A model generated the notes under the pieces. It saw only the letters and a list, made by a program, of their open reading frames with translations. It ran no database searches and was not told the origin of the DNA. Shown here in pieces: positions 1,557 to 50,528 of a stretch of DNA of 64,000 nt (within the stretch, counting starts at the first letter, position 1; every line of letters starts with the position of its first letter). Origin of the DNA: Methylophilaceae bacterium (GTDB lineage: Bacteria; Pseudomonadota; Gammaproteobacteria; Burkholderiales; Methylophilaceae); NCBI GenBank assembly GCA_028122555.1, contig JAOHSH010000004.1, positions 1 to 64,000 of the forward strand. The letters run 5' to 3'. The position numbers and the translations under genes were made by a program.

Positions 1557-2448
1557 CCATTTTCAAGCATTTAATAGAGCCTTAGTTAGGATTATTTCTA
1601 ACTTTGGCTCTTCTCTTATGATGTTCATAGTTATAGGCGTTACATTATTTTTACCTAGTTCTGGTTTATTGATTGTAGAAAATGTATCTCAAATATCAAA
1701 TAATATTGCATATGATGCGGAGTTAAGTCTTTTTTTAAAAAAAGGAATTAAGCAAGACCAAATAGATTTCATCCAATCTGCTCTAAATAAAACGTTAATA
1801 GTTAAAAAGACACATTATGAGAGTAAGCTAATTGCATGGGATAAATTACAATCCAAATTAAATTTAAATCCATTGAGTACCGGCATATCAGAGAACCCAC
1901 TTCCTGATGCATTTTTTATTTCATTGAATACCTTTAATGAAAAAGAAATAAATGCCCTAATAGATAATTTAAAAACCATTGATGGTGTAGAAAATATATT
2001 TTTCGATGCAGGTTGGGTTAAAAAATTAAGATCTATCTTATATCTATTAAAAATAGGTTTAGCTTTCTTAGGAGCTATACTAATTATAGTTCTTATTGTG
2101 GTGATTGGTAATACAATTCGTCTCCAAACATTAACTCATAAAGATGAAATAGAGGTAAGTAAACTTATTGGGGCTACTAATAGCTTTATACAAAGACCTT
2201 TTATTTATACAGGTCTAATATACGGACTAGGAGGTGGCTTAATAACTGTTTTCACTCTTAAACTGTCTATTGAGATATTTAATAAAGCCGCTATTAATTT
2301 AGAAGCGATGCTTGGCGGAACCTTCATATTAAAAAACTTAATGTGGCAACAAAATTTAAGCATTATTTTAATTGCAATGATAATTGGTTGCTTGGCCTCC
2401 TTTTTTGCTGCTCATCAATCAATAAAAAAATTCGAAATATTTAAATAA
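1537..2448 (+). CDS. ftsX: Cell division protein FtsX
   Basis: Membrane partner of FtsE. The 303 residues show the expected topology: an N-terminal membrane segment (about residues 22-45), a periplasmic domain, then three hydrophobic segments in the C-terminal half (about 168-190, 222-245, 272-295). It transmits ATPase cycles to periplasmic hydrolase activators. It starts inside the ftsE 3' end. The stop at 2446-2448 is followed almost at once by the rpoH promoter, as in other gammaproteobacteria where ftsX precedes rpoH. Confidence 0.93.
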   Translation: MFNYFHNHFQAFNRALVRIISNFGSSLMMFIVIGVTLFLPSSGLLIVENVSQISNNIAYDAELSLFLKKGIKQDQIDFIQSALNKTLIVKKTHYESKLIAWDKLQSKLNLNPLSTGISENPLPDAFFISLNTFNEKEINALIDNLKTIDGVENIFFDAGWVKKLRSILYLLKIGLAFLGAILIIVLIVVIGNTIRLQTLTHKDEIEVSKLIGATNSFIQRPFIYTGLIYGLGGGLITVFTLKLSIEIFNKAAINLEAMLGGTFILKNLMWQQNLSIILIAMIIGCLASFFAAHQSIKKFEIFK

Positions 2449-2452
2449 ACCC

Positions 2453-2482
2453 TTGTATTCAATGAAAATTTTAGTGTAAACT
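2453..2482 (+). promoter_or_regulatory. Predicted housekeeping promoter of rpoH
   Basis: TTGTAT (2453-2458) and TAAACT (2477-2482) are separated by 18 bases, a plausible sigma-70 pair lying just past the ftsX stop. The predicted transcription start (about 2489) falls inside the CIRCE element at 2481-2507, the expected geometry for repression by operator occlusion. This is read from sequence only. Confidence 0.55.
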
Positions 2483-2507
2483 AGCACTCTACAATAAAGA
2501 GTGCTAA
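2481..2507 (+). promoter_or_regulatory. CIRCE operator (HrcA-binding inverted repeat) upstream of rpoH
   Basis: The sequence is CTAGCACTC, nine bases (TACAATAAA), then GAGTGCTAA. The CIRCE consensus is TTAGCACTC-N9-GAGTGCTAA, so the spacer length is exact and only the first base differs. The 8-bp arms are perfect inverted repeats (2482-2489 and 2499-2506). CIRCE is the operator of the heat-shock repressor HrcA and usually precedes groESL or dnaK operons. Here it overlaps the predicted start of rpoH transcription, 37 bases before the rpoH ATG. No hrcA gene lies in this window. Confidence 0.88.
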
Positions 2508-2543
2508 TATATACATAAAATTTAAGAGGAATTTGTTCTTACT

Positions 2544-3419
2544 ATGAATAATTATTTATCTTTATCTTCTTTCAGCAATGCTGATAGCTTTACTTTGTAC
2601 CAACAATCTATCCAAGAAATCCCGTTCTTAAGCGAAGAAGAAGAATACGAGCTCGGAATACGCCTCAAAAAGAATAATGATTTAGAGGCTGCAAAAAAAC
2701 TTATTCTATCCCATCTTAAGCTTGTGATGAAAATTGCCCGATCTTATAGTGGGTATGGTCTTCCGCAATCAGATTTAGTTCAAGAAGGTAATATTGGATT
2801 AATGAAAGCAGTCAAGAAGTTTGATGTAGATCGCGGTGTAAGATTAGTTTCATATGCAATGTTCTGGATTAAGGCTGAAATACAGGAGTATGTAGTTAGA
2901 AATTGGCGCTTAGTAAAGATGGCAACGACTAAAGCACAAAGAAAATTGTTCTTTAATCTTAGAAGTCTTAAATCGACATTACAACCACTTGGTTTAACAG
3001 AAATAAAAGCAATTGCTAAGGAACTAAATGTTAAAGAAGAAGATGTACGTGAAATGGAATTCCGCTTCAATGGAAAAGAATCATCAATTGATTACTCTAA
3101 TGATGATTCAGACGAAGAACAGTTCCGTCCTATAGCTTATTTAAAAGATTCAGCTCTTTTACCATCAGAAGAGATAGAAAAAAAAGAGACTGAATCAAAT
3201 AACTCAAAAAATCTAAAAAAAGCACTAATGAAATTAGATACAAGAAGTAGAGAAATTGTTGAAGCAAGATGGTTAAAGGAAGATAGAACTGAGACGCTTC
3301 ATGACCTTGCTAAAAAATATAAAGTATCTGCTGAGCGTATAAGGCAAATTGAGAAAAATGCAATGAAGAAAATTAAAATATTTATAACATCATCTAACGT
3401 ACAAGACTTAAATAGTTAA
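2544..3419 (+). CDS. rpoH: RNA polymerase sigma-32 factor RpoH (heat shock)
   Basis: Alternative sigma factor directing RNA polymerase to heat-shock promoters. The 291 residues show region 2 (SDLVQEGNIGLMKAVKKFD, then SYAMFWIKAEIQEYV), the RpoH-specific box QRKLFFNLR, and the region 4 helix-turn-helix (LAKKYKVSAERIRQIEKNAM). The nearest SD-like run (AGAGGA, 2525-2530) is about 13 bases from the ATG, which is long, but no other in-frame start fits. The leader carries a CIRCE element, suggesting HrcA control in addition to the usual post-transcriptional control of sigma-32. Confidence 0.95.
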   Translation: MNNYLSLSSFSNADSFTLYQQSIQEIPFLSEEEEYELGIRLKKNNDLEAAKKLILSHLKLVMKIARSYSGYGLPQSDLVQEGNIGLMKAVKKFDVDRGVRLVSYAMFWIKAEIQEYVVRNWRLVKMATTKAQRKLFFNLRSLKSTLQPLGLTEIKAIAKELNVKEEDVREMEFRFNGKESSIDYSNDDSDEEQFRPIAYLKDSALLPSEEIEKKETESNNSKNLKKALMKLDTRSREIVEARWLKEDRTETLHDLAKKYKVSAERIRQIEKNAMKKIKIFITSSNVQDLNS

Positions 3420-47985: not shown

Positions 47986-48041
47986 GGTAAACCTTCACTA
48001 AATGTTAATATTGATCAATTATCCACTAAAGAGACATATTG

Positions 48042-48617
48042 GTGAAAAAAAGATTCATTAAAATTGGTTTAATTTCTATAAGCGATCGAGCGTCATCTGG
48101 AGAATATAAAGATGAAGGCTTACCTAATCTTAAAAGTTGGCTAACTAACGCACTTGTTAATCCTTTCGATTTAGAGGAAGTAATTATCCCTGATCAGATT
48201 AAGATCATTAAAAATACTTTAATTACACTGTCAGATAAAAAGAAATGTGATCTTATTCTTACAACTGGAGGTACAGGCCCTGCAAAAAGAGATGTTACTC
48301 CAGAGGCTACATTAAGTATTGGAAATAAAGAAATGCCAGGTTTTGGTGAGCAAATGAGGCAAATCAGTTTATATTTTGTACCAACAGCCATCTTGTCCAG
48401 ACAAGTTGCAGTTATAAGAAACTCAACTTTAATTATAAACCTACCTGGCCAGCCCAAAGCTATTAAAGAAACATTGGAGGGGCTTAAAGATAAAGAAGGT
48501 AATCTAATAGTAGCTGGTATATTTGCAGCTGTACCATATTGTTTAGATCTTATTGGTGCACCTTATATTGAAACAAAAGAATCAATACTTAAATCTTTCC
48601 GCCCTAAGAAAAAGTAA
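48042..48617 (+). CDS. mog: Molybdopterin adenylyltransferase Mog
   Basis: Adenylates molybdopterin before molybdate insertion. About 191 residues with IGLISISDRASSGEYKDEGLP, LILTTGGTGPAKRDVTPEAT and NLPGQPKAIKETL, all typical of Mog/MoaB. The start is GTG at 48042 or the adjacent TTG at 48039. It implies molybdenum enzymes elsewhere in the genome. Confidence 0.93.
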   Translation: MKKRFIKIGLISISDRASSGEYKDEGLPNLKSWLTNALVNPFDLEEVIIPDQIKIIKNTLITLSDKKKCDLILTTGGTGPAKRDVTPEATLSIGNKEMPGFGEQMRQISLYFVPTAILSRQVAVIRNSTLIINLPGQPKAIKETLEGLKDKEGNLIVAGIFAAVPYCLDLIGAPYIETKESILKSFRPKKK

Positions 48618-48618
48618 A

Positions 48619-49569
48619 ATGCCTTCAGAATTTTCATTAATTGATAAATATTTTAATTTATATAAAACTAAAGCATACAAAGGAATTGGGGATGATGCTG
48701 CTTTACTAAAAAAAAATAATAACTATTTATGGGCTATCTCAACAGATATGTTGAATGAAAAAACTCACTTTCTTCCTAATACCAATCCATTTAACTTAGG
48801 ATGGAAAGCTCTCGCAGTAAATATCTCTGATATATATGCAATGGGAGGTATCCCGAAGTTTGCTCTACTAGCAATTGCACTTCCTAAATTGAGAGAAGAT
48901 TGGATAAAAGAATTCTCTAAAGGTTTATTTAGCTGTGCAAAAAAATATAAAGTTGAGTTAATTGGGGGTGATACTTCAAAAGGTCCCTTATCTATTAGTA
49001 TTTGCTTACTAGGTGAAGTACTAAAAAATAGTACTCTTCTAAGATCAAAAGCAAAAAGAGAAGATGACATATGGGTAACTGGAGAATTAGGGCTTGCTGC
49101 ATTGGGTCTAGCAAAGCTTAAGAATAAAATTCAATTACCTGAAAGTTTATCAAGAAAAGCTATTAGTAGATTGGAGAAACCAATGCTTCATTCATCCATA
49201 GTACAAAAAATGGCTAAACTAAGTCATTCTGCAATTGATATTTCTGATGGACTAATCGCAGATCTTACACATATTTTAGAAGCCTCTAAAGTTGGGGCTT
49301 GTATATCTTTACAGGATATACCTATGGACCCTTGGATGAAAAAAAATAAATTATTTGATATGGCTTTATCTGGTGGTGATGACTATCAATTAATTTTTAC
49401 TGCCCCTAGAAGGAACCGTAATAAAATTAATATGATAAGTAAATTGCCATCAGTAAAGTTAGCGAAGATTGGTGTGATTAAAAAAGAGAAACATTTAAAT
49501 ATAATTGATGACAAAGGTAGCCAATATAAAATTAAAAAGAAGGGATATGATCATTTTGAAACCAAATAG
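48619..49569 (+). CDS. thiL: Thiamine-monophosphate kinase ThiL
   Basis: Makes thiamine diphosphate. About 316 residues: FSLIDKYF, GIGDDAALL, STDMLNEKTHF, GGIPKFALLAIALP, GGDTSKGPLSIS, DISDGLIADLTHI and LSGGDDYQLIFT are the ThiL/PurM-like motifs. The ATG at 48619, 1 base after the mog stop, is preferred over an in-frame ATG at 48553 inside mog. It precedes pgpA as in other gammaproteobacteria. Confidence 0.94.
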   Translation: MPSEFSLIDKYFNLYKTKAYKGIGDDAALLKKNNNYLWAISTDMLNEKTHFLPNTNPFNLGWKALAVNISDIYAMGGIPKFALLAIALPKLREDWIKEFSKGLFSCAKKYKVELIGGDTSKGPLSISICLLGEVLKNSTLLRSKAKREDDIWVTGELGLAALGLAKLKNKIQLPESLSRKAISRLEKPMLHSSIVQKMAKLSHSAIDISDGLIADLTHILEASKVGACISLQDIPMDPWMKKNKLFDMALSGGDDYQLIFTAPRRNRNKINMISKLPSVKLAKIGVIKKEKHLNIIDDKGSQYKIKKKGYDHFETK

Positions 49570-50050
49570 ATTACTATTAAAAAATTTCTCAACTTGTTTA
49601 GCTCTTGGTTTTGGAAGTGGCCTGATAAAGAGAGCTCCTGGTTCTTTTGGCACATTAGTAGCAATTCCATTTTACTTATTCCTACAATTTCTTTCAGAGC
49701 CTTTAATCTATTTATTTATTTTCACTATGTTCTTTTTAGGTATTTATGTTGCTGATAAAACAAGTAAAGCTTTAGCAATGGATGATCCTTCTTGTATCGT
49801 AATTGATGAAATTGTAGGTTTTTTACTATTACTAATAATGTTAGACCACTTTTCTGAAACTGATATTTTAATTACTGAAATAGATTTTATTACGGCATTT
49901 ATTTTATTTCGTATTTTTGACATATGGAAACCTTTTCCAATTAATATTCTCGAAAAAAAATTTAAAGGTGGCTTTGGCATAATGATCGATGATATCGGAG
50001 CTACAATATATGCTTATATATTGTTCATGCTTATTCATAATGCAATCTAA
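49547..50050 (+). CDS. pgpA: Phosphatidylglycerophosphatase A
   Basis: Forms phosphatidylglycerol from its phosphate. About 167 residues with GFGSGLIKRAPGSFGTL, DDPSCIVIDEIVGFLL and FRIFDIWKPFPI, typical of PgpA, plus several membrane segments. I chose the ATG at 49547 with AGAAGGG just upstream; it overlaps thiL by 23 bases. An upstream in-frame ATG at 49505 lies deeper in thiL. Confidence 0.93.
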   Translation: MIILKPNRLLLKNFSTCLALGFGSGLIKRAPGSFGTLVAIPFYLFLQFLSEPLIYLFIFTMFFLGIYVADKTSKALAMDDPSCIVIDEIVGFLLLLIMLDHFSETDILITEIDFITAFILFRIFDIWKPFPINILEKKFKGGFGIMIDDIGATIYAYILFMLIHNAI

Positions 50051-50528
50051 AGACATAATTAAATTAACTCAAGCCCTAGGTGAGAAATTTTTAATGCAAA
50101 AAATAATGCTCACCACTATTGAGTCATGCACTGGTGGGTTACTATCTGCTCAGCTAACAAATACACCTGGAAGCTCGGCTTGGTTTGATAGAGGTTTTAT
50201 TACATACAGTAACCAATCTAAAATTGACTGTTTAAAGGTAAAGAAAATTACTATAAATAAATATGGAGCCGTTAGCCAACAAACTGCAAATGAGATGGCT
50301 CTAGGAGGAATCAAAAATAGCCAAGGAAATTTAGCATTAAGTATTACTGGTATTGCTGGTCCTCATGGTGGATCTAAACTCAAGCCTATCGGTACTATTT
50401 TTTTTGGAATTGCTAAAAAAAATAATATAATTTTTGAACATCAAGCATTGTTTGATGGAAATAGAGTTGATATTAGAGAAAAAGCTGTTCTATTTGCATT
50501 AAATCAATTATTGACGCTTACCTTATAG
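50040..50528 (+). CDS. pncC: Nicotinamide-nucleotide amidohydrolase PncC (CinA C-terminal type)
   Basis: Deamidates NMN in pyridine nucleotide recycling. About 162 residues consisting only of the CinA C-terminal domain: TTIESCTGGLLSAQLTNTPGSS, FITYSNQSK, GAVSQQTANEMA and SITGIAGPHGGS...KPIGTIFFGI. The start at 50040 overlaps pgpA by 11 bases. It stands before recA as in Pseudomonas. Confidence 0.92.
   Translation: MQSKDIIKLTQALGEKFLMQKIMLTTIESCTGGLLSAQLTNTPGSSAWFDRGFITYSNQSKIDCLKVKKITINKYGAVSQQTANEMALGGIKNSQGNLALSITGIAGPHGGSKLKPIGTIFFGIAKKNNIIFEHQALFDGNRVDIREKAVLFALNQLLTLTL

Follow-up and report, generated by a model that had tools for sequence, protein, structure and literature searches.

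A predicted HrcA operator, CIRCE, with embedded promoter elements ahead of rpoH in a Methylophilaceae bacterium and its HrcA-bearing relatives

The window, that is the whole 64-kb stretch of Methylophilaceae DNA analysed here, carries near its beginning an ftsX-like gene (1537-2448, + strand; TIGR00439, 236 bits, slightly below the cut-off of 255) followed by rpoH, which encodes sigma-32 (2544-3419, + strand; 291 aa). Between the two lies a full 27-bp CIRCE, the predicted operator of the repressor HrcA, at 2481-2507 on the + strand, 32 bp past the end of the ftsX-like gene and 36 bp ahead of the rpoH start. It reads CTAGCACTC-TACAATAAA-GAGTGCTAA and differs from the consensus TTAGCACTC-N9-GAGTGCTAA by a single mismatch, a C for T at the first base. 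The original prediction had reported the shorter form TAGCACTC-N9-GAGTGCTA at 2482-2506, with one mismatch to the longer consensus and just before rpoH; its letters and coordinates are exact, the mismatch count holds over the full site, and the downstream ORF scores 373 bits with the RpoH equivalog TIGR02392, above the cut-off of 323. We assign CTAGCACTC-N9-GAGTGCTAA as an operator on the basis of its pattern, its uniqueness in the assembly and its conservation ahead of rpoH. It is the sole match at up to 3 mismatches in the 64-kb window, where shuffled sequences lead one to expect 0.01, and also the sole match at that threshold in the 857 kb assembly (69% complete), in which a reversed control pattern gave one match at up to 3 mismatches and none at 2. 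The candidate operator occupies the promoter region of a gene of the heat-shock response, at a position that agrees with the conserved promoter elements described below.

The proposal depends on a repressor, and a search of the same genome found hrcA intact (PF01628, E 8.6e-66; TIGR00331, 325 bits against an equivalog cut-off of 197). Its neighbours are hemH and a divergent NAD kinase gene, and it is not part of a grpE-dnaK operon. Since the assembly holds no other CIRCE within 3 mismatches, hrcA, dnaK and grpE are without one; the original prediction had also proposed looking for CIRCE before groES and dnaK, and the answer is negative for dnaK at up to 3 mismatches, groES being missing from the incomplete, 69%-complete assembly. 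In place of the operator, dnaK is preceded by a strong sigma-32 type promoter, CTTGAAA-N12-CCCCTA, and grpE by CTTGAAA-N13-CTCCAT (L036, at about 3074 and 3648, respectively, - strand), and these two are the only promoters of the CTTGAAA type at up to 1 mismatch in a 13.5 kb stretch. The 64 kb window itself holds no sigma-32 type promoter at that threshold. Elsewhere in the window, at 48039-50528, four consecutive + strand ORFs each overlap by about 60 bp and three have TTG as their listed start; their true starts probably lie further in, or else this is an unusual overlapping operon.

Within Methylophilaceae, CIRCE was found at up to 2 mismatches in 149 of the 150 family genomes and in all 24 genera, mostly with exactly two sites per genome, and the reversed control pattern matched in 6 of the 150. 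We read the surroundings of 29 of the relatives' sites among the matches listed (L007-L035; one locus per genome, second sites left out): 9 stand before rpoH, 19 before groES and one at a contig end. The ORF on the groES side begins MKIRPLHDR and matches GroES models. Since groES is missing from the assembly of our bacterium, this part of the system is visible in the relatives only. Among named rpoH loci, 17 of 80 have CIRCE at up to 2 mismatches ahead of the gene, namely the Methylophilaceae-type loci L039-L044 and L046 plus ten others; together, these 7 usable named loci and 9 further family loci show 0-2 mismatches at rpoH. We excluded the locus L045 from the Methylophilaceae sets, since within the CIRCE right arm its contig passes into seemingly unrelated sequence; the break lies at about 2900-3001, rpoH resumes at residue 33, and the whole looks like an assembly join. 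The RpoH of the window is 84% identical to that of AH-578-B19, 70% to that of HTCC2181 and 68% to that of a BACL14 bin, all OM43-type Methylophilaceae. Its closest match, 86% identical and likewise with CIRCE ahead of rpoH, is in a record labelled Flammeovirgaceae (L039, NZHT01000036.1), which is probably mislabelled or a mixed bin.

By these matches our bacterium is one of the betaproteobacteria, of the Methylophilaceae/OM43 type, a group that GTDB places within the class Gammaproteobacteria. The wider distribution was sampled at the level of the order and of the class. Up to 600 bp ahead of rpoH were sampled in 69 order genomes, out of 116 relatives with an rpoH match, each family with a match contributing at least one, and in 128 class genomes, one per family, out of 130 with an rpoH match (the other two being the window's own genome and G197, which is counted under the order). 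At up to 2 mismatches, CIRCE stands at rpoH in 59 of the 62 order genomes with hrcA and in none of the 7 without a detected one (Fisher p = 1e-7, kinship ignored), and in 79 of the 90 class genomes with hrcA against 8 of the 38 without a detected hrcA (Fisher p = 4e-13, kinship again ignored). The three order genomes with hrcA that miss this threshold match at 3 to 4 mismatches; of the 11 such class genomes, 5 match at 3 and the other 6 have no site. A second rpoH-like copy in G297, with no CIRCE (8 mismatches), was not counted as a genome. Of the 8 class genomes that have the site although hrcA was not detected, one (G359) carries a piece of the gene at the edge of a contig, and completeness is 62-85% in four. 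Three others, G399, G392 and G281 (L291, L215 and L247), are 97-98% complete and have CIRCE at rpoH with no hrcA detected; recent loss of hrcA, an assembly gap or a diverged repressor are candidate explanations. The phylum sample added further class genomes, 16 without hrcA and without the site and one with both.

Outside the class, where 45 of 75 genomes were examined, the site is present at up to 2 mismatches in 3 of the 34 genomes with hrcA and in none of the 11 without, with one more at 4 mismatches. The three positives (L353, L356 and L357) belong to a single family, f202, in which they make up 3 of the 4 hrcA-bearing genomes examined; the other families examined outside the class have no CIRCE at rpoH at that threshold. 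Named loci, examined at rpoH alone, agree with this pattern: CIRCE is present ahead of the gene in Thiohalobacter, Sedimenticola and a Methylococcales symbiont and absent from the loci labelled Halomonas, SAR86, Neisseriaceae and Alteromonas. The relatives therefore hold a conserved site rather than a random sequence at this position. HrcA control of rpoH, as the original prediction had it, is the best reading because hrcA is present, the site is kept in relatives and it tracks hrcA. The other half of that claim, a rewiring peculiar to this lineage, has to be rejected, given that CIRCE at rpoH is the rule among sampled HrcA-bearing genomes of the class.

The window holds three candidate promoters around the operator. 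A candidate sigma-70 type -10, TAATAT, is formed where the CIRCE right arm ends (2505-2510, + strand) with an extended TG at 2502-2503, and is seen in the alignment of relatives; its -35 would be a weak CTAGCA in the left arm (2481-2486, + strand) at 18 bp spacing. The alignment also points to a decayed sigma-E type -35, GAAAATT (2464-2470, + strand), with 2 mismatches to the GGAACTT that is intact in L039, the closest relative of the window, and the corresponding -10 position, in left arm and spacer, is occupied by TCTAC (2488-2492, + strand), a weak match with one mismatch to TCTRA. The third candidate is the TTGTAT-N18-TAAACT of the original prediction (-35 at 2453-2458, -10 at 2477-2482, + strand), which is present by its letters; it had been placed right before CIRCE, but the last two bases of TAAACT are also the first two of the site. 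By our criteria this promoter recurs in 9 of the 14 distinct sequences from Methylophilaceae and is not clearly visible in the 149-site profile, so that we keep it as a candidate and not as the main promoter; unlike this one, the promoter motifs that are kept class-wide lie inside and around CIRCE. Judging from these positions, HrcA bound at 2481-2507 would cover or touch all three.

The profile aligns 149 sites on CIRCE (58 from the order, 87 from the class and 4 from the phylum sample, one of these in the class; G229, which is included in the counts given above, has too little sequence ahead of its site to be included). Beyond the palindrome itself, three stretches are conserved: GGAACTTT at -16 to -9, T[CA]A at +9 to +11, and AAT right after the right arm. 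GGAACTT with up to 1 mismatch starts at -16 in 52 of the 149 sites and at -17 in 18, any other offset accounting for 6 at most; with up to 2 mismatches it is found at -17 to -15 in 97, whereas control windows average 5.8 and reach 14 at most, and 52 sites lack even a 2-mismatch version. GGAACTT-N16-TCTRA is the sigma-E promoter type, and its -10 would consequently fall in the CIRCE left arm and spacer; many relatives have both elements, a GGAACTT -35 and a TCTRA -10, at a spacing of 15-17 bp. On the other side, the right arm and AAT together read TGC-TAAAAT, an extended sigma-70 type -10, for which the left-arm TT[AG]GCA at 18 bp spacing is a possible -35. TANNNT occurs at +24 in 137 sites, TG in all 149, and TATAAT with up to 1 mismatch in 70. 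The two arms are also not equally constrained, since base 3 of the left arm deviates (mostly A to G) in 46 sites and the base that mirrors it, which is also the first T in the right-arm -10, in one (p = 1e-14). Such an asymmetry is expected if the right arm doubles as a -10 and is not expected of a palindrome that serves HrcA only.

The groES sites of the family are built differently. GGAACTT is found in none of the 19 and AAT in one; TANNNT is present at the equivalent position in 13, so in a family this rich in AT the pattern by itself lacks specificity. Instead, 18 of the 19 have CTTGAA with a TAT-containing -10 beside CIRCE by a loose pattern (CTTGAA, 10-22 bases, TAT 1-3 bases ahead of CIRCE) and 6 by a stricter one, and CTTGAA ahead of CIRCE at rpoH is seen in 1 of the 149 sites. 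In genomes of the order and class without CIRCE, a sigma-E type promoter is still found at rpoH in 12 of 59 at up to 1 mismatch, against 0.75 in base shuffles, and in 24 at up to 2 mismatches against 9.9, which fits, on these motif counts, a loss of the operator with the promoter partly retained. The sigma-E type rpoH promoter is not confined to the class, since it was also found in 6 of 41 CIRCE-less genomes outside it, against 0.5 expected.

We consider it very probable that the site is a functional HrcA operator within a feed-forward loop, in which HrcA would act on rpoH and groESL and GroEL would close the circuit; the site, its conservation, its association with hrcA, the overlap with promoter motifs and the sigma-32 type promoters of dnaK and grpE are read from the DNA, and from them we infer HrcA binding, repression, the promoter in use and the feedback through GroEL. 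HrcA on 2481-2507 would cover the promoter elements and keep sigma-32 transcription low as long as free GroEL keeps the repressor active. Once unfolded protein occupies GroEL, HrcA would lose activity and rpoH would be derepressed, and sigma-32 would then drive dnaK, grpE and, in relatives, groESL. The original prediction saw a pure cascade from HrcA to sigma-32. This does not survive the comparison, given that relatives have CIRCE at groES too, beside a sigma-32 type promoter, so that HrcA would act both directly and via sigma-32. With HrcA repressing rpoH and groESL, and sigma-32 activating groESL, dnaK and grpE, the loop would be a coherent feed-forward one. In Campylobacter GroE is described as stimulating HrcA binding (PMC8533110, in the part available), and in Caulobacter, according to the available part of another report, GroESL maintains HrcA and keeps it folded (PMC8119881); by analogy, free GroEL would shut the loop in the present organism.

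A rival reading is that HrcA binds at rpoH yet trims basal transcription only, with translation, stability and chaperone sequestration mainly setting the sigma-32 level, as they do in E. coli, and the regulon left ungated. This we regard as possible but doubtful. In E. coli, sigma-32 is also controlled after transcription, for which reason the claim that one repressor gates the entire regulon keeps its conditional form here, and most HrcA-less genomes keep rpoH without CIRCE, as though the gate were dispensable. However, a site in 79 of the 90 hrcA-bearing class genomes, one per family, implies steady selection, and no RNA thermometer that could substitute for it was found at rpoH. Folds of the leader and start of rpoH, in variants that start at 2499 or 2517 and leave out the full repeat with both arms, were not unusual against shuffles (z 0.43 and -0.01), and Rfam gave a single match over 2300-3000, on the other strand and with 19.9 bits, below the gathering score of 50; at the start of rpoH we therefore reject both an RNA thermometer and a known RNA family. 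It is very hard to believe that the repeat works in the rpoH leader as a hairpin of RNA, for stability or thermosensing, and not as a DNA operator. A transcribed CIRCE can form a stem, and with a start at TTGTAT-N18-TAAACT the leader would include most of it, but the conservation follows hrcA, transcripts directed by the conserved -10 where the right arm ends would begin downstream of the repeat, and changes at the most variable arm base are one-sided (46 against 1 of 149) rather than compensatory; the leader from 2499 or 2517, without the full repeat, folds no better than shuffles. That the site is a chance or relic sequence without function in a reduced genome is equally improbable, since the decayed sigma-E -35 and the small genomes of the window's genus (1.0-1.4 Mb for most) have to be set against an intact hrcA over its equivalog cut-off, a single mismatch in the site and the 0-2 mismatches at the named and further family rpoH loci.

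HrcA/CIRCE control is known for groE and dnaK of Bacillus. In Caulobacter the operator and the repressor family are the same and the described target is groESL, whereas the target in the window is the alternative sigma factor itself (PMC8119881, available part). Closer to our case, a CIRCE ahead of rpoH was predicted in Geobacter sulfurreducens by Rodionov et al. 2004 (PMC545781), with the same operator consensus, there at -51, and, as in the window's relatives, with CIRCE also at groESL. The hrcA-grpE-dnaK-dnaJ genes of Geobacter have the operator as well, unlike dnaK and grpE in the genome of the window, and as far as the available part of that paper goes, the case is a computed prediction for one species in which the overlap with promoter elements is not noted (PMC545781). 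In the open literature searched, with subscription papers and regulon databases outside the scope, we found no report of CIRCE at rpoH beyond Geobacter, nor of its spread across a class or its embedding in a promoter. We therefore regard CIRCE at rpoH as a known kind of site, of which the class-wide arrangement with embedded promoters is a variant. Permina and Gelfand reportedly treated the same regulators in the same bacterial groups and may already list CIRCE at rpoH.

The promoter region of E. coli rpoH includes a sigma-E dependent promoter, and the E. coli-type region resembles that of our relatives in having a GGAACTT-type -35 and a TCTRA-type -10, 16-17 bp apart, ahead of rpoH. The difference is that in many HrcA-bearing relatives the sigma-E type -10 lies within CIRCE, and our E. 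coli control genome gave no HrcA match. In Vibrio alginolyticus, sigma-E is reported to bind the rpoH promoter (PMC4890791, in the part available). CIRCE at rpoH may be an ancestral integrator of the class, in which HrcA, as a sensor of GroEL status, gates both an envelope-stress input through sigma-E (left-arm -10) and a housekeeping input through sigma-70 (extended right-arm -10), the E. coli circuit being a derived, stripped-down version that, like other lineages without HrcA, lost HrcA and the operator and partly kept the promoters; to this scenario we give even chances.

Teaching usually presents HrcA/CIRCE and sigma-32 as separate answers to one problem. Going by the genomes compared here, the two heat-shock systems appear to be wired together, and the presence of promoter elements within the operator leads to concrete and easily tested predictions on start sites and hrcA mutants. 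Should repression of rpoH by HrcA hold for all beta- and gammaproteobacteria that have HrcA, the two systems would be one circuit there, and the loss of hrcA in E. coli-like lineages would have meant a rewired input to sigma-32.
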